Of a stretch of 38,496 bases of DNA, positions 1,363-34,401 are shown in pieces (the stretch's first letter is position 1; each line of letters starts with the position of its first letter). Below the pieces are notes generated by a model. The model was not told the origin of the DNA, searched no databases, and saw only the letters and a list, made by a program, of their open reading frames with translations. Source of the stretch: Gammaproteobacteria bacterium (lineage in GTDB: Bacteria > Pseudomonadota > Gammaproteobacteria > Steroidobacterales > Steroidobacteraceae). The translations under genes and the position numbers were made by a program. Location: NCBI GenBank assembly GCA_030040235.1, contig JASHUC010000008.1:1-38496 (forward strand), in the 5' to 3' direction.

Positions 1363-1363
1363 A

Positions 1364-1382: not shown

Positions 1383-1463
1383 CCTGCGGCCCCTGCTCCC
1401 GCGTTACTCCAAATTCATTGCAATTCGCGCTGCGCGCGGCTTCGGCCGTGCGCAGTTGCGCGC

Positions 1464-1514: not shown

Positions 1515-1527
1515 ATAGGGAAGCGGC

Positions 1528-2843: not shown

Positions 2844-2882
2844 GAGTAACGGTAGGCACTTCTGCGCATCTCACGCGCGACA

Positions 2883-3557: not shown

Positions 3558-3618
3558 TGCTCGCACTGTTTTCCCCGTTTTCCGGCCGCCGACCGTGCGG
3601 AGCGCTCGAGGATGAGGC

Positions 3619-6600: not shown

Positions 6601-7302
6601 GTGGTCGGCATCGGCGGTGCGTACCTCTGCATCTATGGCCTCGAAGGACCCGGCGGATATCAGCTGTTCGGGCGCACCGTGCAGGTGTGGAACAGCTATC
6701 GCCAGACCCAGGCGTTTCGGGACGGCAAGCCCTGGCTGCTGCGCTTCTTTGATCAGATCCGCTTCTTCCCGGTGACGCCGGCCGAGCTCGCCGAGTGGCG
6801 ACGCGAGTTTCCTTTGGGCCGCAGAGCTCTGCGCATCGACGGGGAGGTCTTTCGGCTCGCCGACTATCGGCGGCTCCTGCGCGAGGAGTGCGACTCGATC
6901 GCGGCGTTTCAGCTCCGGCGGCAGGCTGCGTTCAATGCGGAATGCGAGAACTGGGAGCAAAGCAACGAGCTCGCGCACCACGATGGCATCGCGGGCACCA
7001 ACGTGGTGCACACACCGGTGCAGACTCCCGTTGACGCGGAGGTCGTGGAGGCTCCATTGGGCGGGTATGTGTGGAAGATATACGTGAAACCCGGTGACCA
7101 CATCGAGAAAGGCACGGTCATTGCAGCGATCGAAGCCATGAAGACCGAGTGCAGCGTGCCGAGTCCCGCCGCAGGTGTCGTGCGCGCCGTGTACGTTCGC
7201 GAGCGACAGACCGTCGGGCCCGGTGCGCCGATGGTCGCGCTGGACATCGCGGCGTGCTCGCGCGCCGCAGCGAGTTCCCGAGCATGCCTCGTGCGACCCT
7301 AG
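3619..7302 (+). CDS. Biotin-dependent guanidine/urea carboxylase
   Basis: A 1227-residue single-chain carboxylase. It starts at GTG 3619 with CGAGGA (3607-3612) upstream; the ATG at 3612 is in another frame. Domains in order: biotin carboxylase (1-450) with the ATP-grasp glycine loop KATGGGGGIGMR (157-168) and EVNARLQVEH (288-297); carboxyltransferase region related to KipA/KipI (AHS2 from about 455, with QDYPGRLGFWNVGVPPSGPMD, and AHS1 from about 800) containing PGGYQLFGRT; and a C-terminal biotin carrier with EAMKTE, the biotinylated lysine being K1175. The enzyme uses ATP and bicarbonate to N-carboxylate its substrate. In other bacteria enzymes in this gene context prefer guanidine over urea. 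The two UAAP genes upstream and the nearby guanidine riboswitch favour guanidine here; sequence alone cannot exclude urea. The last 19 bases overlap the allophanate hydrolase gene. Confidence 0.93.
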   Translation: MFHKVLIANRATIACRIIRTLRRMGIGSVAVYSDADLGSRHVRDADEAVRIGPAPAPESYLNVEQILAAARERGAQAIHPGYGFLSENAEFAARCETQGLAFIGPTPENIRAFGLKHTARELARAHAVPLLPGSGVLPDCATALREAERIGFPVMLKATGGGGGIGMRPCAGPAELPEALDVVRRLAASHFADCGVFLERLVPNARHIEVQIFGDGRGRVIALGERDCSLQRRHQKVIEESPAPRLPEATRARLTECAERLASAVHYRSAGTVEFLYDPDRDEFFFLEVNARLQVEHGVTEEVLGIDLVEWMIRCAAGESAFLDAWAGAGTRARARRVAIEARVYAEDPGAAFRPSSGTLTHVTFPEDARTETWISGGSEVSPHYDALLAKLIVTGPDRTSAVDALQRALDETLLAGIETNLAWLREVVRSEMFTAGRPSTHALAAIDYAARSVRVSSGGVATSIQDYPGRLGFWNVGVPPSGPMDGLAFRLGNRLLGNPQGAAGLEWTAVGPTLEFDRAAIVCLAGAESDATLDGVPVEPYTPQAVVPGQVLRLGRLRGAGLRGYVLFRGGLDVAPYLASRATFTLGGFGGHAGRNLAAGDVLHLAPEPADSIEPALERSLRPRIGREWTLRVLSGPHGAPDFFTTGDIETFLDARWRVHYNSNRTGVRLLGPRPKWARRTGGEAGLHPSNIHDNAYAVGAVDFTGDMPIVLGPDGPSLGGFVCPFVTIQADLWKLGQLAPHDTVQFESVDAEAATRLEHAQDSFIAQPGARARRVPGVHARPAPRARCILDPLLASIPARGERPQTAYRRQGDRHLLVEYGPIVLDLELRLRVHALMLELEKLSLPGILDVTPGIRSLQVHYESRMLRQSDLLQRLADAEERLGTLADFQVSSRVVHLPLSFRDPAVEETIARYMASVRDDAPWCPDNIEFIRRVNGLASADEVRRIVFDARYLVLGLGDVYLGAPVATPLDPRHRLVTTKYNPARTWTPPNVVGIGGAYLCIYGLEGPGGYQLFGRTVQVWNSYRQTQAFRDGKPWLLRFFDQIRFFPVTPAELAEWRREFPLGRRALRIDGEVFRLADYRRLLREECDSIAAFQLRRQAAFNAECENWEQSNELAHHDGIAGTNVVHTPVQTPVDAEVVEAPLGGYVWKIYVKPGDHIEKGTVIAAIEAMKTECSVPSPAAGVVRAVYVRERQTVGPGAPMVALDIAACSRAAASSRACLVRP

Positions 7303-9095
7303 CCGGCATCGTCTCGGCGGTCTCGACGGGCGGCTCGAGCGCCGAGTACATCGCGGCGCAAACGCTCGCCGATGCGGCCGCCTACGATGCCGTTCAGCCA
7401 CAAGCCTGGATCAGCCGTTGTGCGCCGGAGGAGGTACTCGCGAGCGCGCGCCGCGTGGATGAACGCATCGCGGCGGGCGAGTCGCTGGCACTTGCCGGTG
7501 TACCCTTCGCGGTGAAGGACAACATCGACGTGGCCGGCATGGAGACGACGGCCGCATGCCCCGTGTTCGCATACACCCCGAGTGCCTCGGCGTACGTCGT
7601 CGAGCGGCTGATCGCAGCGGGCGCAATCCTCATCGGTAAGACGAATCTCGATCAGTTCGCGACGGGGCTCACCGGCACACGCAGCCCCTATGGAGCGCCC
7701 CGGTGTGTATTCAATCGGGAGTACGTGAGCGGCGGGTCGAGCTCGGGATCCGCGGTGGTCGTCGCCGCCGGGATCGTGCCTCTCGCGCTCGGGTCCGATA
7801 CGGCAGGCTCCGGACGCGTCCCCGCGGCCTTCAACGGCCTCACCGGATTCAAGCCCACGCGCGGCCGCTGGAGCACGCGCGGCCTACTTCCCGCATGCCG
7901 CTCGCTCGATTGCGTGAGCGCATTGACCGTGGCGGCCGCGGATGCGGCGCTGACCGATTCAGTCATCGCCAGTTTCGACGGCGAGGATCCCTACTCGCGT
8001 CGCTCAGCATCGCCCTCACAGCTCGGCGTGCCCTTTCGCTTCGGAATCCCGCGGGCCGGTCAGCTCGAGTTCATGGGTGATGCCGAAGCCGCGGAGCTCT
8101 ACCGTACGGCCCTCGAGCGGCTGGTCGAGGCGGGAGGCGCTGCCGTCGAGATCGATGTCGCTCCGCTTCTCGATGTGGCGCAGCTGCTGTATGCGGGTCC
8201 CTGGGTGGCCGAGCGCACCCTGGTGCTGGAGGACCTGCTGGCAACCCGTGCAAGCGCGGTTCATCCCGTCGTGCGCTCGATTGTCGAGGCGGGCAAGGGG
8301 ATCTCCGCGGTAGAGGCGTTTCGCGGATTTCACGCGCTGCAACGGCAGGCGCGCTGGACCGAGACGCTGTGGCAAAGCATCGATGTGCTCGTGCTGCCTA
8401 CGGCCCCTACGATCTATCGCGTGAGCGATGTGCTCGCCGAGCCGATCACGCTCAACACTCATCTCGGTTGGTACACCAATTTCGTGAATCTACTCGACAT
8501 GACCGCCATTGCCGTCCCGGCCGGATATCGGCGCAACGCCACTGGATTCGGCGTTAGTTTCATGGCTCCCGCCTGGGCAGATCAGGCGCTGCTCGAGCTC
8601 GCCCGGCGGCTCGAGATCGTGTGTCCGTCGCCTGCGCCGCCGGCGCTCGATGTCTCGCCCCGAACGCCCACCGTACGGCTCGCCGTGGTCGGCGCGCACC
8701 TCGAGGGACTTCCGCTCCATTTCCAGCTCGCCTCGCTGGGCGCGCGCCTGGCGCAACGCACGCGCACCGCACCGGTGTACCGGCTCTACGCGATGCGCGC
8801 ACAAACGCCGCCGAAGCCTGCGCTCGTGCACGTCGGAGCCGGCGGCGGGGCGATCGAGATCGAAGTCTATGAGCTCGAGGTGGCCGCATTCGGCACCTTC
8901 GTTGCGGAGGTGCCTGCGCCGCTCGCGATCGGGACGGTCGAGCTCGAGGACGGAACCGCCGTGCGCGGGTTCCTCGCCGAGCCGCGTGCGCTCGCGCACG
9001 CCGAAGACATCACCTCGGAGGGGGGATGGCGCGCCTACCTGGCAAGAGGTGCGCATCGGGAACGGACGCAGAGCCACGTCGAGGCCCATCAGTGA
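7284..9095 (+). CDS. atzF: Allophanate hydrolase
   Basis: A 603-residue amidase-signature enzyme that hydrolyses allophanate to two ammonia and two CO2, the last step of guanidine or urea-carboxylase breakdown. The ATG at 7284 lies inside the end of the carboxylase gene. The Ser-cisSer-Lys triad is visible: K78 in PFAVKDNID, S152 in SGGSSSGS and S176 in GSDTAGSGR, with the family spacing of 24 between the serines. FNGLTGFKPTRGRWSTRGLLPACRSLDCVS is typical of the allophanate hydrolase branch. The C-terminal part from about residue 460 (RLAVVGAHLEGLPLHFQLASLGA through AYLARG) matches the extra C-terminal domain of full-length allophanate hydrolases, so the protein is complete. Its stop overlaps the start of the transporter gene (GTGA). 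Confident on family and role. Confidence 0.93.
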   Translation: MPRATLAGIVSAVSTGGSSAEYIAAQTLADAAAYDAVQPQAWISRCAPEEVLASARRVDERIAAGESLALAGVPFAVKDNIDVAGMETTAACPVFAYTPSASAYVVERLIAAGAILIGKTNLDQFATGLTGTRSPYGAPRCVFNREYVSGGSSSGSAVVVAAGIVPLALGSDTAGSGRVPAAFNGLTGFKPTRGRWSTRGLLPACRSLDCVSALTVAAADAALTDSVIASFDGEDPYSRRSASPSQLGVPFRFGIPRAGQLEFMGDAEAAELYRTALERLVEAGGAAVEIDVAPLLDVAQLLYAGPWVAERTLVLEDLLATRASAVHPVVRSIVEAGKGISAVEAFRGFHALQRQARWTETLWQSIDVLVLPTAPTIYRVSDVLAEPITLNTHLGWYTNFVNLLDMTAIAVPAGYRRNATGFGVSFMAPAWADQALLELARRLEIVCPSPAPPALDVSPRTPTVRLAVVGAHLEGLPLHFQLASLGARLAQRTRTAPVYRLYAMRAQTPPKPALVHVGAGGGAIEIEVYELEVAAFGTFVAEVPAPLAIGTVELEDGTAVRGFLAEPRALAHAEDITSEGGWRAYLARGAHRERTQSHVEAHQ

Positions 9096-10123
9096 AGAAG
9101 CGTATCTGGCCTGCCCGAGCCGAGCGCCGGGGCGCGACTCCGATTCGCCTTCCGGCGCGAGGCACGCGGCTTGCGGCCGTGTTCCTGCTGCTCGTCTGCG
9201 GCCCCCTCGCTGCGCACGCGCAGCTGCGGGTGGGTGTGTCGGACTGGCCCGGCTGGGTCGCCTGGTACGTCGCCGAGTCTCAGGGCTACTTCAAGAAGTA
9301 CGGCGCCGACGTGAAGCTCATCTGGTTCGCAAACTACAGCGATTCGATCTCCGCTCTCTCGACCGGCCAGCTCGATGCGAACAGCCAGACCTGGTCAGAC
9401 ACGCTCGGACCGCTCGCGAAAGGCTTGCCGCTCGAGGTCGTGCTCGTCAACGACAACTCCGCAGGGAACGACGCGGTGATGGTGAGCCCGCGCATCCACT
9501 CGTTCGTCGATCTGAAGGGTCATACCGTCGCGCTCGAGCAATTCAGCGTGTCGCATTTCGTGCTTTACACGGCGCTTGCCCGCAACCATTTGACGCCGCG
9601 CGACGTGACGGTCGTCAACCTCTCTGCCGGGGACGCCGCCGCGGCCTTCATGACCGGGCGCGTGGACGCCGCCGTCGTGTGGAATCCCTGGATCAGCCAG
9701 ATCGAGAAGAGCGGGCGAGGCCGGGCGCTCTTCACCTCGCGAGAGATGCCGGGCCTCATCCCCGACCTGCTGGTCGCGCAGAGCGAGGCGATCCGGACCA
9801 AGCGTGGCGAGTTGGTCGGCATGATCAAGGCGTGGTTCGATACGGTCGCCTTCATCCACGCGCATACCGGCCAAGCGGTGCAGATCATGGCGAGGGTCGT
9901 GGGTCTCAATACCGAGCAGTACCAGGTCTTTCTCCCCGGAACGCACCTCTTCGATGCCGCTGCGAATCTGGATGCCTTCGATCCGCGCAGTCCGCGCAGC
10001 CTCGTGGCCGTCGAGCCCGCAATTGCCACCTTCCTCCTTTCCAACAAGCTGATCGACGGCCGGCCGAACGCCGCAACCGGCGTGGACCGCTCGCTCCTCG
10101 ATGAGGCTTTGAGGACTCGATGA
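9092..10123 (+). CDS. ABC transporter substrate-binding protein (NrtA/SsuA/TauA type)
   Basis: A 343-residue periplasmic binding protein. I place the start at GTG 9092, which overlaps the allophanate hydrolase stop (GTGA); the N-terminus is a long signal peptide with a basic leader and hydrophobic core RLAAVFLLLVCGPLAAHA, cleaved before QLRVG. LRVGVSDWPGWVAWYVAESQGYFKKYGADVKLIWF is the standard start of NMT1/SsuA-like binding proteins, followed by SISALSTGQLDANSQTW and the second-lobe segment FMTGRVDAAVVWNPW. The aromatic and acidic composition around W16-type positions could suit a cation, but that is a guess. Encoded between the catabolic enzymes and its permease and ATPase, it probably delivers guanidine or a related compound. 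Related loci in other bacteria carry the same transporter class. Confidence 0.9.
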   Translation: MKKRIWPARAERRGATPIRLPARGTRLAAVFLLLVCGPLAAHAQLRVGVSDWPGWVAWYVAESQGYFKKYGADVKLIWFANYSDSISALSTGQLDANSQTWSDTLGPLAKGLPLEVVLVNDNSAGNDAVMVSPRIHSFVDLKGHTVALEQFSVSHFVLYTALARNHLTPRDVTVVNLSAGDAAAAFMTGRVDAAVVWNPWISQIEKSGRGRALFTSREMPGLIPDLLVAQSEAIRTKRGELVGMIKAWFDTVAFIHAHTGQAVQIMARVVGLNTEQYQVFLPGTHLFDAAANLDAFDPRSPRSLVAVEPAIATFLLSNKLIDGRPNAATGVDRSLLDEALRTR

Positions 10124-11046
10124 GGACGAGTGAGGTCGTGATGCCGCTCGAGCGGCCCGTCGCGCGGAGCGATATCGCCTCAGCCGGTGAGGCTCAGGAG
10201 CACGCGGATGCATCGACCGCGACCGCTCTCGAGCCGCCCGCTCCCCGCAAGCTGTCCTCGACGCCGTGGACCATTCGCGGTTTCATCAGCCGGCGCCAGT
10301 ACTGGACCTTTGCGGCGATCGGCGTCGCTGTACCGCTCGCCGCATGGTTCGCGCTCACAGCGCTCGGGACGGTGAACAGAGTGTTCCTCCCGAGCCCATT
10401 CGATGTCGTCCGCCGCGTCGGCACGTGGTTCAACAACGACGACCTGCTCGGAGATGTGCGGATCAGCTGCTACCGCGTCATAGCCGGGTGGGCGCTCTCG
10501 GCGCTCATCGCGCTGCCGCTCGCGCTCCTCATCGGCACCTACCGCTTCGTGCAGGCGCTGCTCGAGCCTCTCACCGACTTCATCCGCTACATGCCCGCGG
10601 TCGCGTTCATTCCCCTCGTGATGCTCTGGATCGGCATCGACGAGGGGGCGAAGATCGCCATTATCTTCATCGGCACGTTCTTCCAAATGGTGCTGATGAT
10701 GGCCGAGGACGTGCGACGGGTGCCGATGGCGCAGATCGAGGCCGCCCAGACCATGGGCGCGACGCGCCTGGAGATCGTCGGGAAGGTGATCGTGCCATCC
10801 GCCAGGCCCGCGCTGCTCGACACGCTCAGGATCACGATGGGCTGGGCGTGGACCTACCTCGTCGTCGCGGAGCTCGTCGCGGCCAATTCCGGTCTCGGCT
10901 ACGCGATCGTCAAGGCGCAGCGCTTCCTGCAGACCGACAAGATCTTCGCGGGCATTATCCTCATCGGCGCCATAGGCCTCGCCATGGATCAGGGCTTCCG
11001 TCTCATCCACCGTCTCGCGTTCCCCTGGCTCTACAAGCGGAGCTGA
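10120..11046 (+). CDS. ABC transporter permease (NrtB/SsuC type)
   Basis: A 308-residue inner-membrane protein; the ATG at 10120 overlaps the binding-protein stop (ATGA). A second ATG at 10141 is an alternative start. After about 65 mostly polar residues come around six membrane segments, including WTFAAIGVAVPLAAWFAL, WALSALIALPLALLIGTY, AVAFIPLVMLWIGI, and IFAGIILIGAIGLAMDQGF. The cytoplasmic coupling loop EAAQTMGATRLEIVGKVIVPSARPAL carries the EAA motif that contacts the ATPase. The N-terminal polar tail is longer than usual for SsuC proteins. It would form the transmembrane channel of the guanidine-linked importer with the flanking gene products. Confidence 0.92.
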   Translation: MRTSEVVMPLERPVARSDIASAGEAQEHADASTATALEPPAPRKLSSTPWTIRGFISRRQYWTFAAIGVAVPLAAWFALTALGTVNRVFLPSPFDVVRRVGTWFNNDDLLGDVRISCYRVIAGWALSALIALPLALLIGTYRFVQALLEPLTDFIRYMPAVAFIPLVMLWIGIDEGAKIAIIFIGTFFQMVLMMAEDVRRVPMAQIEAAQTMGATRLEIVGKVIVPSARPALLDTLRITMGWAWTYLVVAELVAANSGLGYAIVKAQRFLQTDKIFAGIILIGAIGLAMDQGFRLIHRLAFPWLYKRS

Positions 11047-11048
11047 AC

Positions 11049-11885
11049 GTGGCGAGCGCGGTGCGCTGCAGCGGCGTATGGAAGATCTTCGATACGGGAT
11101 CGTCCCGAATTACCGCGCTGCAGAACCTGAGTCTCGAGATCGCCAAGGGCGAATTCGTCACGCTGGTCGGCGCATCGGGGTGCGGCAAGTCCACGTTCCT
11201 GCGCACCCTCGCCGGGCTCGAGATCCAGACGGCGGGCGAGATCGAAGCCGGCGGCTCGCCCATCGCAGGTCCCGGCGTGGATCGCGCCATGGTCTTCCAG
11301 GACTACAGTCTTTATCCCTGGCTGACGGTGACCGAGAACATCAAGTTTACGCGGAAACTCTCCGCCCATAGGCGCGATAGAACCTCCGCGGACCTGAAGA
11401 CCGCCGCCGGGCGCGCCGAGGCGCTGCTCCGTGTCATGGGGCTTGCGGCCGTGGCGGACGCCTACCCGAACCAGCTCTCGGGCGGAATGCAGCAGCGCGT
11501 CGCAATCGCGCGCGCACTGATGAGCCGTCCCCGCATTCTGCTCATGGATGAGCCCTTCGGAGCGCTCGATGCTCAGACGCGCGAGGTGATGCACGATCTG
11601 ATCCTGCACGTCTCCGAGCTCGAGCATTGCACCGTGGTCTTCGTTACACACGACGTCGAGGAGGCGATCTATCTCGCGCAACGGGTCGTGGTGATGGCCC
11701 CGAGACCGGGCCGCATCGACTCGATCTACGAGGTGCCGCTGCCCATGCAGCGCCTTCAGGACATGAAGCACACCCGTCCGTTCCTCGAGCTCAAGTCGCA
11801 AATACTCGCGCGCATCCGTGCCACCTCGGGCATGAAGACGGACAGCGACCTGCTGCAGAAGCTCTCCAGGGGCGGCGAGGTCTGA
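11049..11885 (+). CDS. ABC transporter ATP-binding protein (NrtD/SsuB type)
   Basis: A 278-residue nucleotide-binding subunit. It starts at GTG 11049, two bases after the permease stop, with GGAG (11039-11042) as ribosome-binding site inside the permease's last codons. All motifs are intact: Walker [10 protein letters not shown] (41-49), Q-loop Q84 in [12 protein letters not shown], signature LSGGMQQR (143-150), Walker B ILLMDEP (163-169), D-loop GALD and switch histidine H201 in [12 protein letters not shown]. It powers import together with the two preceding gene products and is the last gene of the operon. The 181 bases that follow, up to the candidate sigma-54 promoter, contain no obvious intrinsic terminator. 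Confidence 0.94.
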
Positions 11886-12066
11886 GACCCCGCGGATCCA
11901 CCGACACGTGCTGCTCCAGTACGGCGCAGATGCCCGACCGCGCGCGCCCGGGCGGTGCGAGCGTGCCGGGATTCGGCATCGTGCGCCGTCCACTGGCAAG
12001 GGCCCCGAGTAAGGAAACGCTGGTTTTCCAAACACTTGGAGGCGCAGCAGGCCGGATGACCGGCAC

Positions 12067-12082
12067 GGGCATGAGCCTTGCA
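12067..12082 (+). promoter_or_regulatory. Candidate sigma-54 (-24/-12) promoter
   Basis: GGGCATGAGCCTTGCA (12067-12082) has GG at 12068-12069 and GC at 12080-12081, exactly ten bases apart, and matches the sigma-54 consensus TGGCACG-N4-TTGCW at all but two positions. Transcription would begin near 12092-12093, just ahead of the conserved riboswitch core. Sigma-54 control would suit a nitrogen-scavenging gene. I could not find a convincing NtrC enhancer site upstream. Confidence 0.5.
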
Positions 12083-12086
12083 CGAT

Positions 12087-12234
12087 GACCTGCACAAATG
12101 TGCGTCTAGGGTTCCGGCCTGCATACGCGGGCGTCTGGTCCGAGAGAGGCAGTCCTGGTCGGCGCGGGAAGGCTCGCAAGTGCGCCGCTCGACCTGGATA
12201 CACGGCGGGACAAAAGCCCGGGAGATCTCAGGTC
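12087..12234 (+). ncRNA. Guanidine-I (ykkC) riboswitch aptamer
   Basis: The three conserved blocks of the ykkC/guanidine-I class are present in order: CTAGGGTTCCG (12106-12116), GGTCCGAGAG (12137-12146), and CGGCGGGACAAAAGCCCGG (12203-12221) followed by GAGA. Between the second and third blocks a long variable hairpin forms from TCC-GGTCGGCGC (12153-12165) with GCGCC-CGACC-GGA (12182-12198), as expected for P2; GGGACAAAAGCCC forms P3. GACCTG (12087-12092) is the perfect complement of CAGGTC (12229-12234) and could close the structure, although the predicted sigma-54 start would lie at its edge. The core is 12104-12225. The element is 112-121 bases ahead of the TonB receptor start codon. The match to the class consensus is strong and I regard the identification as firm. 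Confidence 0.94.
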
Positions 12235-12336
12235 GAGGAGACTTACTCATCCTCGGGACGATCTTCCGCGCAGGAGAGCTTCCCGCAGTCCATTGAGTCT
12301 CTTCGACGGTGCGACACGGCATCGAACTCGAGGAGA
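12233..12336 (+). promoter_or_regulatory. Possible riboswitch expression platform (duplicated Shine-Dalgarno sequence)
   Basis: TCGAGGAGA occurs twice: right after the aptamer (12233-12241) and as the ribosome-binding site of the receptor gene (12328-12336). TCCTCG at 12250-12255 is complementary to CGAGGA in both copies. It can therefore pair either with the aptamer-proximal copy, leaving the ribosome-binding site free, or with the ribosome-binding site, hiding it. This suggests translational control, which is inference from pairing only. No terminator hairpin with a T-run is present in the leader. Confidence 0.45.
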
Positions 12337-12345
12337 TATCGCGCT

Positions 12346-15066
12346 GTGAAGTTCAAACACGGTCGGCACGCGGCAAGCTCCACTCGTGCGGCGCGGCAAC
12401 CACTCATCGATCCGACGGCCAGGGTCATGCGGCTCGACCGGATGACCTCGCTCACCGCGGCGGTGCTCACCGCGCTTTACGGTGCGCCGTGCCTTGCCGA
12501 CGGCGGTGCAGTGGCGAGCTCCGGGACCGCGGCGATCGCCGCAACCGGCGCACCGAGCCCCGGCGCGGCGGCGCCAGCGAACGGCGGGACTGCGGCAAGC
12601 GGCGACGCCCCCGATCCCGGCGGTTTGCAGGAGGTGATGGTCACGGCGACGCGTCGAACAGTCAACGCGCAGGATCTTCCGATCAGCATCACTGCGGTCA
12701 GTGGAGCTCAGCTGCAGCAGGAGGGTATCGAGGACATCGAAGGCCTCGCGCAATCGCTGGCCGGAGTCAATTTCACGGACAAGGGTGCCTTCAACGGCGT
12801 CAACGGCTCGACGCTCATCATTCGCGGCTTGAACAGCGAGCAGACGGCCGGGCAGCTCGGGCTCGCCACGCCGGTCGTGCCGCCGGTTGCAACGTACGTC
12901 GACGACACTCCGCTTTTCTTCAACGTGCAGCTCGAGGACATCGATCGCGTCGAGATCCTGCGAGGCCCACAGGGAACCCTCTACGGTTCCGGGTCCCTCG
13001 GAGGCACCATCCGATTCGTGCAGAACGCCCCCGATCCGACGGCGTTCGACGCCCAGGTGGATGTCGGGGCGAGCGACACCGCGCACACCCATGCGCCGAA
13101 CGAGGAGGTTCATGGCCTTCTCAATATCCCGTTCTCGGAGACGGTCGCGATCCGCCTCAACGCCGGCTACTCCTACGATGCCGGATTCATCAATCAGCCG
13201 AACCTTTATGCGCTCAATTCCGCAGGCGCGCCGATCTCTGCGATGCCCGGTGATCCGTTCAGCCCGCCGGTGAAGTACTCCGAGGACGGCACGAATCACA
13301 ACACTGCCGAGAACGCACGCGTCGCGATGCTCTGGAAGCCGAACGACCAGTTTCATGCCGAATTCAACTATTACTACCAGAATATGCAGGCGGGCGGGTT
13401 TCCGTACGCGGCGACCCAGACGGCCGCATACAACAACTGGGTGAGTCCCGCGACACAGCCAACGGGAACCTTCACGAGTCCCTCTCTCGCGCTGCCGCTC
13501 TACACCGCTCCCGTGCCTCCCGGCGTGGACTCCTTGTCCAATGCGGACAATACCCTGGAAAGTGCGACCGACAAGGTTGGGCTCGGCGCGCTCGCGGTCG
13601 AATACGACTTCGGGTTCGCGACGCTCACCTCCTCGACCTCCTATGCGGACCATCTCAATCGGTCGACCGACGATCTCACCGCGCTGTACACCAATTTCTC
13701 CTTTTTCCAGAGCCTGTATGGGCAGAACCCGCGGTCGTTCGTGATCGGGAAGGACGAGCTCGACGACCGGCCCTGGGCCGAGGAGCTGCGTCTGACCTCC
13801 AGCACCGGCGGTGCCCTCGACTGGGTCGCGGGTCTCTTTTACCGCTACGAAAAGACGATCATCCAGGAGCACGAGTTTTATCCGGGCTATCTCGACTTCT
13901 ACGATGCGTGCGCGCCGATCTACGGACAGAGCAGCGGCAACGGCGTGTCGCCCTCGTACTGCGGCGTCGGAGAGACGGCATACGACCCGGCGGCCGCCAC
14001 CTACGTCGATGGCATTCCGATCATCAAGGATCAGACGTACATCGGTGACTTCGAGACGAAGTTCCGCGACATCGCCGCTTACGGAGACGTGACCTGGCAC
14101 ATCACGCACGCCTGGAGCCTCACCGGGGGGACCCGGGTGTTCAAACAGGAAGTGACCCAGGCTCAGCAGACCGGATTGCTGTTCGACGGAGGGCCCTTCT
14201 TCGGCGCCGAGCCTCCGATCGCCAATTCCTCGCTGAGCGACACCTGGAGCCGGGCACTCTGGAAGCTCAATACCTCCTACCAGCTCGACGACAAGAACCT
14301 CGTCTACGCGACCTGGTCGCAGGGATTTCGCCGCGGCGGCGTGAACGCGCTGCCCGCAGCCGAGCCCGGCGAGAGCTACGTGACACCGCCTGCGCTCACG
14401 AAGCTCTCGCCCGACACGGTCGACAATTACGAGGTCGGATTCAAGGGAGAGCTCGCGAAGCGCTTCCGCTATTCGGCGGCGGTGTTCGACATGCAGTGGC
14501 ACAACGTCCAGGAGGGTGTGCAGCTGACTCCACTCGTGCTGCCCGCATCGCTCAATGTCGGGGATGCCGTGAGCCGCGGCGCCGAGCTCGAGCTGTTCTG
14601 GCTGTTGAGCTCGCACTTCAATGTGCAGGTGGACTACACCTACGACCAGACCAAGCTCACCTCGCTCAATCCGCTCTTCGTATTCCCGAACGTCTCGGCG
14701 CCGCCGCCCGCGATCGGCAGCCCTCTGCCCGGCACTCCGAAGGAGAGCGCTGCCCTCACCCTCGAATATCTGCAAGCGAACGTCCTCGGGTGGGCGATGC
14801 GCTACGACATCACCGAGCACTACCAGAGCGCGCTGTTGCCGGCGCTCTCGGCGACGGTTCCAACGGTCCCCGGCTACAGCATGCTCGATACGCGCCTGAG
14901 CTTTCAGCGCTCGCACTGGACCTGGATGCTCTATCTCGACAATGTGACGAACACGCTCGGCATCCAGTCGTACTCGGACCCCGCGCTTTACGGAAACCGC
15001 TGGCAAGCGATCGTGTCGACGCCGCGCACCGTCGGCATGAGGATCTATTACGCGCTCAACGAGTAG
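12346..15066 (+). CDS. TonB-dependent receptor under guanidine riboswitch control
   Basis: A 906-residue outer-membrane receptor. I chose GTG 12346 because AGGAGA lies ten bases upstream; ATG 12427 (MRLDRMTSLTAAV) is an alternative that starts directly at the signal peptide. After the signal peptide (ending near APCLADGG) and an Ala/Gly-rich linker come the TonB-box-like EVMVTATRR, the plug domain (PISITAVSGAQL to GTIRFVQNAPD, with VEILRGPQGTLYGSGSLGG) and a 22-strand barrel. A cysteine-containing loop (DACAPIYGQ...PSYCGVG) is probably extracellular. The protein ends in YYALNE and so lacks the usual terminal aromatic residue. It energises uptake through TonB. The guanidine riboswitch in its leader and the guanidine operon upstream point to guanidine or a guanidino compound as substrate. 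This is inference; such receptors usually carry larger molecules than guanidine. Confidence 0.92.
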   Translation: MKFKHGRHAASSTRAARQPLIDPTARVMRLDRMTSLTAAVLTALYGAPCLADGGAVASSGTAAIAATGAPSPGAAAPANGGTAASGDAPDPGGLQEVMVTATRRTVNAQDLPISITAVSGAQLQQEGIEDIEGLAQSLAGVNFTDKGAFNGVNGSTLIIRGLNSEQTAGQLGLATPVVPPVATYVDDTPLFFNVQLEDIDRVEILRGPQGTLYGSGSLGGTIRFVQNAPDPTAFDAQVDVGASDTAHTHAPNEEVHGLLNIPFSETVAIRLNAGYSYDAGFINQPNLYALNSAGAPISAMPGDPFSPPVKYSEDGTNHNTAENARVAMLWKPNDQFHAEFNYYYQNMQAGGFPYAATQTAAYNNWVSPATQPTGTFTSPSLALPLYTAPVPPGVDSLSNADNTLESATDKVGLGALAVEYDFGFATLTSSTSYADHLNRSTDDLTALYTNFSFFQSLYGQNPRSFVIGKDELDDRPWAEELRLTSSTGGALDWVAGLFYRYEKTIIQEHEFYPGYLDFYDACAPIYGQSSGNGVSPSYCGVGETAYDPAAATYVDGIPIIKDQTYIGDFETKFRDIAAYGDVTWHITHAWSLTGGTRVFKQEVTQAQQTGLLFDGGPFFGAEPPIANSSLSDTWSRALWKLNTSYQLDDKNLVYATWSQGFRRGGVNALPAAEPGESYVTPPALTKLSPDTVDNYEVGFKGELAKRFRYSAAVFDMQWHNVQEGVQLTPLVLPASLNVGDAVSRGAELELFWLLSSHFNVQVDYTYDQTKLTSLNPLFVFPNVSAPPPAIGSPLPGTPKESAALTLEYLQANVLGWAMRYDITEHYQSALLPALSATVPTVPGYSMLDTRLSFQRSHWTWMLYLDNVTNTLGIQSYSDPALYGNRWQAIVSTPRTVGMRIYYALNE

Positions 15067-15071
15067 TCGGA

Positions 15072-16526
15072 ATGAAGTCCGCGCGATCGTTCCTGTTCCG
15101 CGCTCAGGCCTTCCTGTCGCTCGGACAGCTGACCGAGGCGCGCGCCGCCGCCGCTGCCGCCGAGCAGAGCGCCGGGGACGATGCTGAGATCCTCGATGCC
15201 GTCGGAACGCTCTTCAGCCGCGCGAATGACCAGAACCGGGCCCTCGCGGCCTACGAGCGAGCCGTCCGCCTCGCGCCGAACGAACCGCGGTTCCTTTTCA
15301 ACCGGGCGACTGCGCGCCGCTTCGTCGGGGCGCTCACCGAGGCGGAGGCCGACTACGATCGGGTGATCACCCTCGATCCCACGGACTTCGAGGCCTACCG
15401 GAATCGCGCGGACCTGCGCACGCAAACGCCGGATCGCAACCACACGTCCGAGCTCGAAGCCCTGCTCGAGCGGGGCGTCGGCGACTGGCAAGCGCAGGTT
15501 CAGCTACGCTTCGCCCTCGCCAAGGAGTACGAGGATCTCGGGGATTACTCGAGATCATTTGAACACCTCGTCTGCGGCGCACGATTGCGGCGCGCGCATC
15601 TTCGTTACGATGCGGCGGTCGACGTGGCAACCGTCGACTGGCTCATCGAGGCGTTTCCGGTACCGCCCGCCGAGGGTTCCTCAGACGGCTGTGCACCGGG
15701 CAGCGCCGCCCCCACGATGCCCGCCTTGCCAAAGGATTCGTCTCGTGAGGCGCCGATCTTCATCGTCGGTCTTCCGCGCAGCGGCTCGACTCTCGTCGAG
15801 CGCATCCTGAGCAGCCATTCGGCGGTCACTTCCGCGGGCGAGCTCACCTGCTTCGCCCTTGCACTGGTCGATGCGGTGCGCAGCCAAGGCGGCGTGGCCC
15901 GACCCACGCGCCGGGAGCTCGTCGCCCGATCCGCCCGGTTGAACTTCGCCGTGCTCGGCCAGGCCTACATCGCGCGCGCGCGGGCTACGGGTGCTGGGCG
16001 TGGTCGCTTCATCGACAAGATGCCGCTCAACCACCTCTACTGCGCCCTCATCCACCGCGCGCTGCCGCACGCGAAGATCATCCACGTGAGCCGCACTCCC
16101 ATCGCGGCCTGCTATGCAATCTACAAAACGTTGTTCGACGGAGGATACCCCTACTCGTACGATCTCGCCGAGCTCGGCCGGTACTACATTGCGTACCGGC
16201 GGCTGATGCAGCACTGGCGAGCGACGCTCGGCGGGGCCCTCTACCATCTGAGCTACGAGGCGCTCATCGCCGATCAGCGTGGCGAGACCGAGAAGCTCCT
16301 CCGATTCTGCGGGCTCGGCTGGGAGGAGGCCTGTCTGGAGTTTCATCACAATCCCGCGCCGGCGACCACGGCGAGCGCCTCGCAGGTGCGAAGTCCCCTT
16401 TACCGGAGGTCCGTCGAGCAATGGCGGCACTATCGCGCCGAGCTTCAGCCTCTGATCCGTCAACTCGAGGACGCGGGCATCACGATCGATGAGTCGTGTG
16501 CGGTAACCGGGCATCGCGAACAGTAA
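15072..16526 (+). CDS. TPR-repeat sulfotransferase
   Basis: A 484-residue protein that starts at ATG 15072, five bases after the receptor stop, and so is probably co-transcribed and under the same riboswitch. Residues 1-165 are tetratricopeptide repeats (for example ALAAYERAVRLAPNEPRFLFNRAT and AEADYDRVITLDPTDFEAYRNRA). Residues 226-475 are a sulfotransferase domain with the PAPS 5'-phosphosulfate loop PIFIVGLPRSGSTLVERIL (PRSGST 235-240), and the 3'-phosphate-binding segment HVSRTPIAACYAIYK (338-352). No signal peptide is visible. Genes of this type are found next to TonB-dependent receptors in several alpha- and gammaproteobacteria, but their substrate is not established. It would transfer sulfate from PAPS; what it modifies here cannot be told from sequence. 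Confidence 0.85.
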   Translation: MKSARSFLFRAQAFLSLGQLTEARAAAAAAEQSAGDDAEILDAVGTLFSRANDQNRALAAYERAVRLAPNEPRFLFNRATARRFVGALTEAEADYDRVITLDPTDFEAYRNRADLRTQTPDRNHTSELEALLERGVGDWQAQVQLRFALAKEYEDLGDYSRSFEHLVCGARLRRAHLRYDAAVDVATVDWLIEAFPVPPAEGSSDGCAPGSAAPTMPALPKDSSREAPIFIVGLPRSGSTLVERILSSHSAVTSAGELTCFALALVDAVRSQGGVARPTRRELVARSARLNFAVLGQAYIARARATGAGRGRFIDKMPLNHLYCALIHRALPHAKIIHVSRTPIAACYAIYKTLFDGGYPYSYDLAELGRYYIAYRRLMQHWRATLGGALYHLSYEALIADQRGETEKLLRFCGLGWEEACLEFHHNPAPATTASASQVRSPLYRRSVEQWRHYRAELQPLIRQLEDAGITIDESCAVTGHREQ

Positions 16527-16531
16527 CGCCG

Positions 16532-16572
16532 ATCCGGAGCTCGTGCGGCGTTGATCCGCCGCGATCCCGGAT
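16532..16572. terminator. Nested hairpin between convergent genes
   Basis: GCGGCG (16545-16550), loop TTGATC, CGCCGC (16557-16562) is nested inside ATCCGG (16532-16537) and CCGGAT (16567-16572). It lies in the 49-base gap between the sulfotransferase stop and the outer-membrane factor stop on the other strand, where a bidirectional terminator would be expected. There is no T-run on either strand, so this is tentative. Confidence 0.4.
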
Positions 16573-16575
16573 TGC

Positions 16576-18048
16576 TCAACGGTCTACGCCCGGATGCTGC
16601 GCATCGTGCAGCTGTGCCGCGGACCAGCCTCCGCCAAGATCACCGATCAAAGTGACGGCATCGACGAGACGGCTTTGCTCAACGGCGAGCGTGTTTTGCT
16701 CGTCGGCAAGCTCCACGGCTTGGGCCGTCGCGACCGTCGTGTAGTCGACAGTGCCGGCCAGGTACTCGTTGCGGGCGATCTCCGCACCACGCTTCGCGTC
16801 GCGTTCAGCCGCGTCGACTGCTTTGGCCTGCTGGGCGAGGATGCGCAGGCCGGCAAGATTGTCCTCCACGCCCTGGAACGCGCTCAGCACGGTCGCGCGA
16901 TAGGTCGCCACCGCCGATTGATACGCCGCCCTGGCTTCGGCCACCTGAGCCGCGCGCGCGCCAAAATCGAGGATCGTCTCGGTGCCGGTCGCACCGATCG
17001 ACCAGACCGTGTTGGCCGCTTGAAACAGCTTCCCCAACGGGGCTTGCGAGACACCGAACGCCGCGGAGAGCGATAGATCGGGATAATAGGCTGCGATCGC
17101 GACGCCGATCGCGGCATTCTGCGCCGCCATGGTTCGCTCGGCAGCCGCGATGTCCGGCCGCCGCTCGAGAAGCGTGGAGGGTACCCCGACCGGGATCCGC
17201 GGCAGTGCCGGCAGAGCGGCGCTGTGTGGAATATCGAGATCCTCCGGATTCTTGCCGATCAGCACCGCGATCGCGTGCTCGTATTGCGCGCGCGCGACAC
17301 CCAATGCGATCAGGCTCGCCTGTGCATTCTCGAGCTGAACGCGCGCGGTGACCTCATCGGACGGCGGATAGAGGCTGTAGCCGGCGTTCACCGCATTCGA
17401 GACCACGCGGAGATACTCCGTGTACTCGACGACCGTCCGGGTCAGCAGATCGATGTTGGCATCCGTCACGCGCAGATTGATCAGCGTCGTTGCGAGTGCA
17501 ACTTGGGCAGACAGCGTCGCATTGGCAAGCGTGGCTTCGCTCGCTTGTGCGTTGGCCGCATTCTCCTCGATCGTGCGGCGAAGTTTTCCCCAGATGTCGA
17601 GGTCCCAGCTGAGCGTGCCTTCGACCGTTCCCTGGTTGACCGTGTACGCCGGTCCCGCGAGGCTGACACCCCCGCTCGCGGCGCTGCTGTTCGTCCGCGA
17701 TCGCGTGACCGAACCCGTGGCGCCGATGGTCGGGAAAAGCGCCGCATCGGCCTGCCGCACCAGCGCCAGCGCCTGCTCATAGCCATAATAGTCCGCTCGA
17801 ATGGTCTGGTTCTCGACACGCACGGCGGGCTCGAGCTCATCGAGCAGCGGATCGTGGAACTGGACCCACCACTCGCCCTTGGGGGCCGTGTCAGCCGGCG
17901 CTGCCGGAGTCCAGCCCTGCAGCTCCTTGTAGCGCGCCGCCGGTGGCGATGCGGGCGGCGGGCGGTGGTAGTCAGGACCGACCGCGCAACTCGCGAGCGA
18001 CAGGACGAACGGCAACATCGCCGGGGATAATCTAACTTGGGTCGTCAT
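16576..18048 (-). CDS. RND efflux outer-membrane factor lipoprotein (NodT/OprM family)
   Basis: A complete 490-residue outer-membrane channel lipoprotein, the last gene of a four-gene efflux operon. ATG at 18048 overlaps the stop of the preceding RND gene (ATGA). The signal peptide ends in the lipobox SLASC with lipid-bearing Cys21, followed by AVGPDYHRPPP. Further family features are GEWWVQFHDPLLDELEPAV, LSWDLDIWGKLRRTIEENAANAQAS, VGVPSTLLERRPDIAAAERTMAAQNAAIGVAIAAYYPDLSLSAAFG and the repeat-equivalent helices near the C-terminus. It forms the trimeric duct through which the pump encoded upstream expels its substrates. It differs from the partial homologue at the left edge of the window, so the genome has at least two such channels. 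Confidence 0.93.
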   Translation of the reverse strand: MTTQVRLSPAMLPFVLSLASCAVGPDYHRPPPASPPAARYKELQGWTPAAPADTAPKGEWWVQFHDPLLDELEPAVRVENQTIRADYYGYEQALALVRQADAALFPTIGATGSVTRSRTNSSAASGGVSLAGPAYTVNQGTVEGTLSWDLDIWGKLRRTIEENAANAQASEATLANATLSAQVALATTLINLRVTDANIDLLTRTVVEYTEYLRVVSNAVNAGYSLYPPSDEVTARVQLENAQASLIALGVARAQYEHAIAVLIGKNPEDLDIPHSAALPALPRIPVGVPSTLLERRPDIAAAERTMAAQNAAIGVAIAAYYPDLSLSAAFGVSQAPLGKLFQAANTVWSIGATGTETILDFGARAAQVAEARAAYQSAVATYRATVLSAFQGVEDNLAGLRILAQQAKAVDAAERDAKRGAEIARNEYLAGTVDYTTVATAQAVELADEQNTLAVEQSRLVDAVTLIGDLGGGWSAAQLHDAQHPGVDR

Positions 18049-21000
18049 GCGTTGGACCCCATTTCGCCCTGGCGCCGCCAGGGCAGTGACAGTGTCGAAG
18101 CGAACTTGATCAGCTTGATCCGCAGACGCTCGAGCGAGAGGTAGATGACGGGCGTCGTGAACAGCGTGAAGATCTGGCTGAGGATCAGCCCGCCCATCAC
18201 CGTGATGCCCAGCGGCTGACGGAGCGATGCGCCCTGACCCATGCCGACGGCGAGCGGCACCGCACCCAGCACCGCTGCGGCAGTGGTCATCATGATCGGC
18301 CGCAGGCGGATCACGGCTGCCTCGTGAATGGCCTCGCTCCCCTCGCGTTTCTCGTTCCGCTCGAGATGGATCGCGACATCGATCATCATGATCGCGTTCT
18401 TCTTCACGATTCCGATGAGGAGAATGATGCCGATGAGCGCGATCATCGAGAAGGGGATACCGAACAGGAGGAGCGCCAGCGTGGCGCCGACCCCGGCGGA
18501 GGGCAGCGTCGAGAGGATGGTCAGCGGGTGGATCGTGTTCTCGTAGAGGATACCGAGCACGATGTAGACGGCGACCATCGCAGCGAGAATCAGGAGCGGG
18601 ATGGCCGCGAGCGACTGAGCGAAGACGCGCGCCGAGCCCTGAAAGCTGCGTTGCACCGAGGCGGGTACGTTGAGTTCGCGCATGACCGAATCGATCGCCG
18701 TCTGAGCGGCGCTCAAGGACCCGCCCGCCGGGAGGTTGAAGGAGATCGTCGCCGCGACCAGGCCGCTCTGATGGTTGACCTGGATGGCCGCGTGGCTGTC
18801 GACGGCGCTCGCGAGTGCGGATATCGGCACCATCGTTTCGAAGCCGGTACTGTCGGCACTGCCGCTCGACGCTCCGCCGCGGGCGTTCGAGATCGTGTTC
18901 GTCGTCTGATTCGCCTCGGCGTTGCCGTTGAGCGCGTTGGCGGCGGAGCCAGCCGTGGCCGATGAGGAGACGGACAAGAATGGGCTGACGCCGCTGACGG
19001 TTCCGGGCGGCATCTGCGTCTGTGCCGTCCCCGGGGGATCGCCTGCCGCCGTGCTGACGAAGATCCGGTTGAGCTCCTCGGGATAGTGCCAGTATTTCGG
19101 CGCGACCTCCATCACGACGAAATACTGATTGTACGGATTGTAGATCGTCGAGACGGTCCGCTGCCCGAACGCATCGTAGAGCACCTGATCGACTTGGTTC
19201 GGCGCGAAGCCGTAGCGCGCCGCCGTGCTGCGGTCGATGTTCACGTAGGTCTGCAGGCCGTCCTGCTCCATGTCCGTATTGACGTCCGTCAATTGGCCGG
19301 GATGCTTGCTGAGCGCGGCGATCACTGTCGGGACGAGCCTGTAGATCGCATCCGGATCGTCGCCGCTCAGCGTATATTGATACTCCGCCGCCGATTGCCG
19401 GCCGCCGATGTGCAGGTCCTGCTGCGCCTGCAGGAACAGCCTCGCCCCGGAGATGCTATCGAGCTGAGGACGGAGGCGGTCCACGATCCGAGCCGCCGCC
19501 GCGTGCCGCTGCGAGAGCGGTTTCAGCTCGATGAAGACATTGGCCGTGTTGGCGGCGCGGCCTGCCGAGCCCGAGCCGGCGAAACCGAAGACCGAGGCAA
19601 CGGCCGGGTCCTTCTTCACGATGGCCTGCAGTTGCGACAACTTTTGCGACATCGCCGGGAACGAGATGGCCTGATCGGCGGTGATCTGTCCCATGATGAT
19701 GCCGGTATCCTGCTCGGGGAAGAACGTCGTGGGAAGGCGCCGCGCCAGGAACAGATTCGCCACGATGATGGCGATCAGCCCGAGTCCGACCGCCAGGCTG
19801 TGGCGCAGCGCCTTCCGCAGCCCGCGCCCGTAGGCATCCCTGAAGCGCTCGAACTGGCTCTCCATCCAGAGGGTCCAGCGTGCCCGCGACTCCCGAGCGG
19901 CACGGTTCCTGAGCAGATGGGCGCACATGCAGGGTGTGATGGTGAGCGAGATCACCATCGAGAACAGGATGGCGATCGACAGCGTCACCGCGAACTCGTG
20001 GAAGACGAGGCCGACCGTTCCGGGCATGAGCAGGATCGGGATGAACACGGCGATCAGCGACAAGCTCATCGAGATGACCGTGAATCCGACCTCGGCGCTG
20101 CCGCGCAGGGCCGCCTCGTTTGGGCTCAGCCCCGAATCGAGATGACGCACGATATTCTCGAGCACGACCACGGCGTCGTCCACGACGAAGCCCGTGCCGA
20201 TGGTGAGGGCCATGAGCGAGAGATTGTCGATGCTGTAGCCGAGCAGATACATCGGCCCGAACGTGCCGATGATCGACAGCGGCAACGCCACGGCCGGTAT
20301 CCAGATCGAGCGCCCCGATTGCAGGAAGACGAAGACCACGGCGATCACCAGCGCGGCCGCAATGCACAGCGTGCGCTCCGTGTCGCCGACCGCGGCGTTC
20401 ACCGATTGCGAGCGATCCATCGCGACGTTGACGTGAACACCGTGCGGCAGCGTCGCCTCGATCGACGGCAGGAGCTTGCGGATCTGCGCGTCGGTCGCGA
20501 CGATATTCGCTCCCGGGATCGGATAGACGATGACACCCACCGCTGGTACATCGTTGTAGAGGCCGATATTGCGGAGATTCTCGTTCGAGTCGATCACCTG
20601 GGCCACGTCGTGCAGCAGCACTGGCGCGCCCTGGCGATAGGCGATGACGAGGTCCTTGTAGTCGGCGGCGACCGACGCCTGGTCGTTGGAGGTGACTTCG
20701 AATCGCTGATCGCCCTGATCGATATACCCCTTGGCGCTATCGGCGTTGGCGGCCGCAACGGCCGCCCGCACGTCCTCCATGCCGATGCCGTAGCTATTGA
20801 GCTTGTCGGGCTCGAGCTCGATGCGCACGGAGGGCAGCGCCCCGCCGCCGAGTGTGATCTGACCCACTCCGCTCACCTGTGAGAGCTGCTGCTGAATCAC
20901 CGTGTCGGCGCTGTCGTAGAGCTGCGCCTTGGTCAGGGTGTCCGAGGTCAGCGCCAGGATCATGATCGGCGAGTCAGCCGGGTTGAATTGGCGCCAGCTG

Positions 21001-21380
21001 GGGTTGCTGCGCAAAGTCGTGGGCAGGTCGGCCCGCGCCGCCTGGATCGCCGCCTGAACGTCGCGCGAGGCACCGTTGATGTCGCGGCTCACATCGAATT
21101 GGACGGCGATCCTCGTCGCGCCGACGTAGCTCGTCGAGGTGAGCTGATTCACGCCGGCAATCACGGCGAGCCGCTTCTCCAACGGTTCGGCGACCGTTGC
21201 GGCCATGATCTCGGGCGCCGCGCCGGCCATGCTCGCCTGTACGACCACCACCGGAAAGGTGATGTTCGGCAGCGGAGCGACCGGCAGATGGTAGTAGGCG
21301 AGCGCACCCGACAGGAAGATTGCAACGCCCAGCAGCGCGGTCGCGACCGGCCGCTTGATGAACAGCGCCGAGATGTTCAC
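18045..21380 (-). CDS. mdtC: RND multidrug efflux permease, MdtC/MuxC-like, with a low-complexity insertion
   Basis: A 1111-residue RND transporter, third gene of the operon; ATG at 21380 overlaps the upstream RND stop. The N-terminus MNISALFIKRPVATALLGVAIFLSGALAYYHLPVAPLPNITFPVV and the proton-relay Asp pair in GTGFVVDDAVVVLENIVRH are typical of MdtB/MdtC heteromeric pumps. Relative to family members of about 1025-1040 residues it is about 70 longer. The extra length is a Gly/Ser/Ala/Asn/Thr-rich stretch at about residues 776-848 (18835-19055) in the second periplasmic (porter) half, starting after VSTAAGDPPGTAQTQMPPG. It would form an inner-membrane trimer with the product of the next upstream gene, which in E. 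coli MdtBC has a 2:1 B:C composition. Substrates there include bile salts and novobiocin; here they are unknown. Confidence 0.93.
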   Translation of the reverse strand: MNISALFIKRPVATALLGVAIFLSGALAYYHLPVAPLPNITFPVVVVQASMAGAAPEIMAATVAEPLEKRLAVIAGVNQLTSTSYVGATRIAVQFDVSRDINGASRDVQAAIQAARADLPTTLRSNPSWRQFNPADSPIMILALTSDTLTKAQLYDSADTVIQQQLSQVSGVGQITLGGGALPSVRIELEPDKLNSYGIGMEDVRAAVAAANADSAKGYIDQGDQRFEVTSNDQASVAADYKDLVIAYRQGAPVLLHDVAQVIDSNENLRNIGLYNDVPAVGVIVYPIPGANIVATDAQIRKLLPSIEATLPHGVHVNVAMDRSQSVNAAVGDTERTLCIAAALVIAVVFVFLQSGRSIWIPAVALPLSIIGTFGPMYLLGYSIDNLSLMALTIGTGFVVDDAVVVLENIVRHLDSGLSPNEAALRGSAEVGFTVISMSLSLIAVFIPILLMPGTVGLVFHEFAVTLSIAILFSMVISLTITPCMCAHLLRNRAARESRARWTLWMESQFERFRDAYGRGLRKALRHSLAVGLGLIAIIVANLFLARRLPTTFFPEQDTGIIMGQITADQAISFPAMSQKLSQLQAIVKKDPAVASVFGFAGSGSAGRAANTANVFIELKPLSQRHAAAARIVDRLRPQLDSISGARLFLQAQQDLHIGGRQSAAEYQYTLSGDDPDAIYRLVPTVIAALSKHPGQLTDVNTDMEQDGLQTYVNIDRSTAARYGFAPNQVDQVLYDAFGQRTVSTIYNPYNQYFVVMEVAPKYWHYPEELNRIFVSTAAGDPPGTAQTQMPPGTVSGVSPFLSVSSSATAGSAANALNGNAEANQTTNTISNARGGASSGSADSTGFETMVPISALASAVDSHAAIQVNHQSGLVAATISFNLPAGGSLSAAQTAIDSVMRELNVPASVQRSFQGSARVFAQSLAAIPLLILAAMVAVYIVLGILYENTIHPLTILSTLPSAGVGATLALLLFGIPFSMIALIGIILLIGIVKKNAIMMIDVAIHLERNEKREGSEAIHEAAVIRLRPIMMTTAAAVLGAVPLAVGMGQGASLRQPLGITVMGGLILSQIFTLFTTPVIYLSLERLRIKLIKFASTLSLPWRRQGEMGSNA

Positions 21381-24487: not shown

Positions 24488-24500
24488 CGGTGCGAGCGAA

Positions 24501-34392: not shown

Positions 34393-34401
34393 GAACCGTC
34401 G

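Follow-up and report, generated by a model that had tools for sequence, protein, structure and literature searches.

Guanidine assimilation has so far been described from the inner membrane inward. The closest described system is an operon of Vreelandella boliviensis, headed by a Guanidine-I riboswitch that is presumably transcriptional, with genes for a carboxylase, CgdA and CgdB, the allophanate hydrolase AtzF and an ABC importer; the passages and figure legend that describe it name no outer-membrane gene (PMC12508155). The aptamer of this operon binds guanidine with a KD of 44 uM and does not bind methylguanidine in the range tested (PMC12508155). Riboswitch control of a TonB-dependent receptor gene is represented by E. 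coli btuB, where a cobalamin riboswitch, treated in connection with translation initiation, exerts negative control by adenosylcobalamin, with another aptamer and another cargo (PMC11162775). TonB receptors for nutrients other than iron chelates include MalA and NagA of Caulobacter, for maltodextrin and N-acetylglucosamine respectively; their cargo again differs, and the main text of that review contains neither 'riboswitch' nor 'guanid' (PMC11658791). Here we describe a 38,496-nucleotide stretch of a Steroidobacteraceae genome (contig JASHUC010000008.1, positions 1 to 38,496 of the forward strand; hereafter the window) in which a Guanidine-I aptamer stands in the leader of a TonB-dependent receptor gene.

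The window shares with the V. boliviensis operon the aptamer class, the carboxylase, CgdA and CgdB, AtzF and the ABC importer. Unlike that system, its switch stands before a TonB receptor gene and has a predicted sequestor of the ribosome-binding site. With btuB it shares a riboswitch on a TonB-dependent receptor gene and, by prediction, action on translation initiation, but unlike btuB it is predicted to be an ON switch sensing the substrate or a product of the substrate. We propose that the element is probably a translational guanidine-ON switch of a receptor that imports a guanidino compound. An earlier note on this DNA knew of no outer-membrane receptor described in the guanidine-I regulon. 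Consistent with this, our literature search, which covered few subscription papers and no supplements, found no paper joining a guanidine riboswitch to a TonB receptor. The word 'TonB' is absent from the main texts of PMC12186494, PMC11410670, PMC12508155 and PMC7736828, and in PMC10119275 ykkC and TonB both occur, as separate topics. The locus joins a known aptamer to a known receptor class in a combination for which we found no description in the literature.

A Guanidine-I aptamer between a guanidine carboxylase operon and a TonB-dependent receptor gene

Comparison of the window with Rfam using cmscan placed a Guanidine-I riboswitch aptamer (RF00442) at 12095-12226 of the forward strand. It scores 88.5 bits, where the gathering cut-off is 63 (E = 9.6e-15 over the whole window). 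The match covers model positions 1-107 of 107, and all upper-case (conserved) consensus letters are matched. This covariance-model result bears out the earlier note, which had recognised the aptamer by its conserved blocks; its bounds of 12106-12221 give way to the slightly wider extent of the model. No second Rfam family exceeded its threshold in the 38,496-base window, and a permissive scan of bases 1-17000 returned just two extra matches, both far under their own cut-offs. Class membership predicts that the aptamer is selective for guanidine.

The aptamer is associated with guanidine genes, as a carboxylase operon on the same strand ends 209 bases upstream. This operon, which is absent from the earlier note, is the strongest local support for the guanidine link. 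It opens with a NikR-family regulator gene (1528-2019; PF08753, PF01402), followed by genes for two DUF1989 carboxyguanidine deiminase subunits: one of UAAP1 type (2016-2843; TIGR03425, 299.5 bits against 205.95), whose candidate ATG overlaps the preceding stop codon, and one of UAAP2 type (2883-3557; TIGR03424, 309.8 against 284.7). The guanidine carboxylase (3619-7302; TIGR02712, 1739.5 against 1303.85) and the allophanate hydrolase AtzF (7284-9095, start uncertain; TIGR02713, 731 against 511) come next, and the deiminase, carboxylase and hydrolase calls all exceed the cut-offs of their NCBI models. The operon ends with an ABC importer consisting of an SsuA-type substrate-binding protein (9026-10123; TIGR01728, 178.9 bits against 163.5), a permease (10120-11046; PF00528) and an ATPase (11040-11885, start uncertain; PF00005), which is ntrCD-like at a score under that cut-off. 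Against the urea-carboxylase-associated model TIGR03427, the substrate-binding protein scored 167 bits, under the cut-off of 333.9. Carboxylase Asp704 aligns with Asn1330 of the K. lactis urea amidolyase, a position that separates guanidine from urea carboxylases (PMC11410670). The operon thus combines Asp at this position with CgdA, CgdB and an allophanate hydrolase, the hallmarks of the guanidine carboxylase pathway. Between 11800 and 12400 we found no sigma-70-type promoter-like site and no intrinsic-terminator-like site, so transcripts of the operon may extend into the receptor gene, over which the riboswitch would then exert a further layer of control.

The next gene on the same strand encodes a TonB-dependent receptor (12346-15066), as the earlier note had proposed, with both the Plug domain (PF07715, 3e-17) and the barrel domain (PF00593, 1.4e-31) in Pfam. 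Its longest open reading frame (ORF) opens 5' of the aptamer. The start near 12087 that the earlier note had used likewise precedes the aptamer. The likely protein start is an in-frame GTG at 12346, 119 bases past the aptamer and nine bases past a GAGGAGA motif (12330-12336); we chose it from this motif and from comparison of leaders, since related leaders carry the equivalent start codon 106-124 bases past the aptamer, in the receptor frame in 10 of 11 cases. The predicted structure of the receptor (mean pLDDT only 56) is a barrel with a poorly modelled plug. It resembles TonB receptors of the PDB (11-15% identity), a resemblance that gives no clue to the ligand.

Recurrence of the aptamer-receptor pair in one bacterial family

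A protein search with the receptor gave 3692 matches, the best 120 of which are at least 61% identical over most of the query. Scanning genome contigs with the single receptor sequence found no relatives, and a scan with an alignment of 35 members found 21 receptor loci. Guanidine-I stands directly 5' of the receptor in eight of these (L001-L005, L009, L019 and L021), and L019 and L021 share the full order of the window, namely carboxylase, hydrolase, ABC importer, aptamer and receptor. The 13 loci without a riboswitch have at least 640 bases of sequence before the ORF (L012) and otherwise more than 1,800, so truncation does not explain its absence. On a tree of 24 receptors, the riboswitch label required four changes, compared with 7.9 in shuffles, of which 2 of 500 were as low. 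This suggests that riboswitch-bearing receptors are clustered without forming one clean clade.

We also surveyed genomes for RF00442 and classified the gene downstream of each match, a search that the earlier note had suggested and that found further pairs. The aptamer was present in 26 of 217 genomes of the family of genome G002 (30 places, 29 over the cut-off), in 19 of 396 of an order sample, which added no place beyond those of the family, in 29 of 369 of a class sample and in 43 of 398 of a phylum sample. These large-scale searches used stricter filters, with which weak matches are lost. Downstream genes, defined as ORFs starting within 900 bases, were classified for 120 distinct places in 93 genomes (four places under the cut-off), with receptors recognised by a profile of the window's own family that would miss very different ones. 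A TonB receptor lay downstream at 10 of the 120 places, all among the 30 within the family. Eight of the ten are the loci L001-L005, L009, L019 and L021 already named, whose intact receptors belong to the family of the window; one, in G065, has a large internal loss, and one, in G068, is only 26% identical to the receptor of the window. The G068 locus has, on one strand, the aptamer, the receptor, a NikR-like gene, both deiminase subunits, the carboxylase and the hydrolase. The combination was seen in one bacterial family and involves at least two receptor subfamilies. In G010, a fatty-acid hydroxylase gene separates an aptamer from another receptor on the same strand (L054, 27% identical); this receptor is not among the ten.

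Genomes with an intact aptamer-receptor pair were compared with those in which only a riboswitch-less receptor was found. Nine genomes fall in the first group, including G004, which has both a switch-bearing (L004) and a switch-less (L006) receptor; G065 was excluded from both groups. CgdA (TIGR03424) was detected in eight of the nine. In the ninth, G020, carboxylase, hydrolase and ABC genes lie beside the receptor and the contig ends inside the carboxylase gene. A carboxylase of the urea/guanidine type is present in all nine, over the cut-off in five and split or cut in four (G004, G005, G020 and G068). In G001, G002 and G003 the Cgd genes are on the receptor contig, 13 to 31 kb away. By comparison, of the 12 genomes whose only receptor from the alignment scan has no riboswitch, two have both CgdA and the carboxylase (G010 and G012), and another, G016, has a partial carboxylase. 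In Fisher tests, uncorrected for kinship and assembly gaps, the carboxylase gave 7.5e-4 and CgdA 1.7e-3. CgdB was scored in relatives by matches to the window ORF at 1884-2843 and to CgdA. Absences are weak evidence here, as no completeness is stated for the surveyed genomes. In G065, the genome of the decayed receptor, no CgdA match was found.

Three side observations came from the same survey. In L055 (G065), near 6574-7379 on the minus strand, the aptamer precedes a receptor gene that lacks most of its middle. Aptamers also stand 5' of fatty-acid hydroxylase genes in L025 (538-1494; G012) and L033 (193-1068; G010), and 5' of a fatty-acid desaturase gene in L096 (1451-2446; G681). The hydroxylase and desaturase placements could possibly reflect a membrane-lipid response to guanidine.

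A predicted translational switch in the receptor leader

The 106-124 bases between the aptamer and the start codon could be aligned in 11 leaders, including those of the distant G068 and the decayed G065. Three segments of the window leader are central to the predicted switch: segment A (12232-12242), the candidate anti-sequestor; segment C (12297-12307); and segment D (12328-12337), which holds the ribosome-binding site GAGGAGA. Segment C is predicted to pair either with A, giving the ON form, or with D, giving the OFF form predicted for the free RNA, in which C sequesters D and A takes part in a local hairpin. Across the 11 leaders the A-C helix is paired in 83.5% of 115 cells, compared with at most 56.8% in slid controls, and no shuffle of 500 reached its observed pairing or covariation score. 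Two-sided changes occur at 6 of its 11 pairs, a number reached by 26 of 500 shuffles. The OFF set, consisting of the C-D helix and two local helices, is paired in 81.8% of 280 cells, with two-sided changes at 8 of 26 pairs, matched by 17 of 500 shuffles. In single-sequence folds the ribosome-binding region was mostly paired in all 11 leaders (mean 0.61-0.87), in L055 with another partner near the 5' end.

In minimum free energy calculations, exchanging C-D for A-C pairing in the window leader cost 7.4 kcal/mol unforced and 0.7 kcal/mol with the aptamer pairs forced, which suggests that formation of the aptamer tilts the balance toward the ON form. For the window, L009 and L019, the fold predicted without ligand also pairs the start codon with the aptamer motif CACGGCG, which is suggestive only. 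A pairing of 12188-12196 with 12230-12238 that would break the aptamer is present in the window fold as well and was left out of the model.

As the covarying A-C pairing and the pairing of the ribosome-binding site are mutually exclusive, we propose a translational ON switch. Without guanidine, segment C would pair with the ribosome-binding site at 12328-12337. With guanidine bound, the folded aptamer would favour pairing of C with A, and the ribosome-binding site would be freed. The receptor would then be produced when the cell contains free guanidine, together with the upstream ABC importer and carboxylase pathway, the promoter of the carboxylase operon being probably under the NikR-family repressor. 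The receptor would carry a guanidino compound over the outer membrane, either guanidine itself or a larger compound that releases guanidine on breakdown.

Receptor cargo and alternative explanations

The genes around the receptor in its relatives point to the nature of the cargo. Among riboswitch-less loci, 7 of 13 have enzymes of guanidino groups nearby: L014, L015, L016, L018 and L020 carry a dimethylarginase/arginine-deiminase-like gene with a carbamoylase-type hydrolase, and L007 and L010 carry an arginase-family ureohydrolase, which is also found in the riboswitch-bearing L002. Judged by their family names, these enzymes would act on guanidino or ureido groups. L015, L016, L018 and L020 lie on one tree branch (support 85/78, which is not strong) and may represent one event. 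NCS1 permease genes neighbour the receptor at 13 of the 21 loci: five of the eight that bear the riboswitch and eight of the 13 that lack it. The presence of guanidino enzymes and NCS1 permeases near riboswitch-less relatives suggests that the receptor most likely imports a guanidino compound, guanidine or something larger. The earlier note had taken the receptor to imply active uptake of such a compound. Its place in the guanidine-I regulon and its recurrence in relatives uphold part of this view, with guanidine itself as one candidate cargo.

In the riboswitch-bearing G001-G004 the receptor is followed by genes for an ArgE-like M20 hydrolase, a Rid-family protein and a DUF1028 protein, with an HpaB-type monooxygenase gene in three of the four and a flavin reductase ORF in G002 and G003. 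The guanidino enzymes and NCS1 permeases near riboswitch-less relatives fit a guanidino compound other than guanidine as the cargo, with free guanidine being the product that the switch senses; the riboswitch is present where such release of guanidine could occur. We tentatively extend this to the whole receptor clade, as an idea that we find plausible but rate below even: the clade may be specialised in carrying across the outer membrane a guanidino compound that is larger than guanidine itself, with different lineages attaching different catabolic modules to the receptor and the riboswitch having been gained in lineages that release guanidine and pass it to the carboxylase pathway. The modules would be a deiminase with a carbamoylase, a ureohydrolase, or an oxidative route ending in free guanidine and comprising the HpaB-type monooxygenase, flavin reductase, Rid protein, M20 and nitrilase-type hydrolases and NCS1 permease. 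The switch would then report successful import. Against this extension count the carboxylase, which is complete in only five of the nine pair genomes, and the occurrence of the oxidative cluster at two riboswitch-less loci.

Several observations weigh against a guanidine-ON switch of a guanidino-compound importer. In the leader, the pair types of the OFF set do not beat shuffles (321 of 500), and the C-D helix is less well kept, at 72.6% of cells. With the aptamer alone forced, the ribosome-binding site was still paired with a probability of 0.93, and the A-C form was 0.7 kcal/mol less stable than the sequestered form, so the ON state would depend on ligand energy and tertiary contacts outside the model. 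In L002 the start codon that ends the aligned leader is out of the receptor frame. Outside the family, no receptor followed the aptamer at any of 90 places. The incompleteness of the carboxylase in four of the nine pair genomes also counts here, as do the G010 and G012 receptors (L011 and L013), which lack the switch despite CgdA and a Guanidine-I aptamer elsewhere in the genome and which carry HpaB, Rid and DUF1028 genes like their riboswitch-bearing relatives. NCS1 permeases and the sulfotransferase accompany receptors with and without the switch, which indicates that the ancestral cargo need not be guanidine, and guanidine is small enough to pass through porins.

The level of control could also be transcriptional, through intrinsic or Rho-dependent termination, with the same biological outcome. 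Guanidine-I switches have been described as transcriptional (PMC12508155, PMC11410670), and the btuB riboswitch causes Rho-dependent termination (PMC11162775). The lack of a terminator-like site in 11800-12400 bears only on the intrinsic type, but the covarying alternative helix competes with pairing of the ribosome-binding site, and we consider transcriptional control unlikely. Passenger placement concerns the cargo instead: a receptor with an unrelated cargo may have been captured when an aptamer-bearing segment landed beside it, and the riboswitch may still regulate it. The receptor family does occur without the switch (13 of 21 loci), both forms coexist in G004, and the same sulfotransferase neighbour is found without the switch. 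Set against this, at least two receptor subfamilies are involved, 11 leaders remain alignable for 106-124 bases past the aptamer, every intact pair that was found has a carboxylase of this type in its genome, and the sole decayed receptor lies in a genome without a CgdA match. We regard a captured passenger as rather improbable.

A further alternative, which we judge distinctly improbable, is that the receptor imports a cofactor or metal for the guanidine pathway (nickel, zinc, iron or biotin) and is induced when the pathway runs. Metal chelates are the classical cargo of TonB receptors, and siderophore and copper receptors are among its best matches by structure, as expected of any such receptor. 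The operon opens with a NikR-family gene, and the guanidinase of other bacteria requires nickel (PMC12186494). The pathway in the window is that of a carboxylase and not of a nickel guanidinase, and the neighbours identified near relatives, where annotation is partial, are guanidino enzymes and NCS1 permeases, with no metal-uptake gene among them. The NikR-like protein scores 97.4 bits against the NCBI NikR cut-off of 105, and in its motif aligned from 2bj1 the Cys and one His, which we take to be metal ligands, are substituted; it is probably not a nickel sensor. A link between this gene and nickel uptake was considered and downgraded for these reasons. Just 5' of the gene lie a TTGACA (1464-1469), which we take to be a promoter consensus element, and a perfect 11-bp inverted repeat, AGTATTACTAA-N8-TTAGTAATACT (1485-1514), both read on the forward strand (1464-1514). 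Allowing at most two mismatches, the half-site pattern occurs five times in the window, against 0.37 expected, and four of the five lie within this repeat. The repeat recurs 5' of nikR-like genes in G018 and G068 with three and four mismatches, and it is the probable operator of the NikR-like regulator. The recurrences of gene and palindrome in two relatives lie in L156 near 11427 and in L159 near 2384.

Other neighbouring genes were considered as guides to the cargo. A TPR-sulfotransferase gene (15072-16526, forward strand; PF13469 and TPR repeats) follows the receptor, its candidate ATG at 15072 five bases past the receptor stop (15066). We rejected it as a guanidine clue, as homologues lie near receptor relatives both with and without the riboswitch. 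A DDAH-like gene as a general partner of the receptor was likewise rejected: it was found in 13 of 22 genomes examined, inside the fetched receptor locus in just five and outside it in eight. In G001, divergent from the aptamer-receptor pair, L150 (254-5203) encodes a class II aldolase, a 336-aa ORF, an NCS1 permease, a 275-aa ORF and a 2OG-Fe(II) oxygenase; the two ORFs have no Pfam match. By description only, this gene set recalls the methylguanidine demethylation pair reported in PMC12508155. Past the sulfotransferase, the window contains a convergent efflux-type cluster (16576-25691) of an outer-membrane efflux protein, an AcrB-type pump and an HlyD-type fusion protein, with a 1036-aa ORF at 21377-24487 between them, and a Fic/DOC-domain protein is encoded at 34327-35796.

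If the proposed guanidine-ON control of the receptor is correct, an energised outer-membrane receptor governed by such a switch would give guanidine assimilation a regulated first step. The pairing suggests that guanidine-related nitrogen compounds are actively pumped in, rather than entering by diffusion alone. Because the riboswitch points to a metabolite, it would make the question of cargo testable for a large family of receptors, and it would provide a handle on the guanidino compounds that these bacteria actually encounter.

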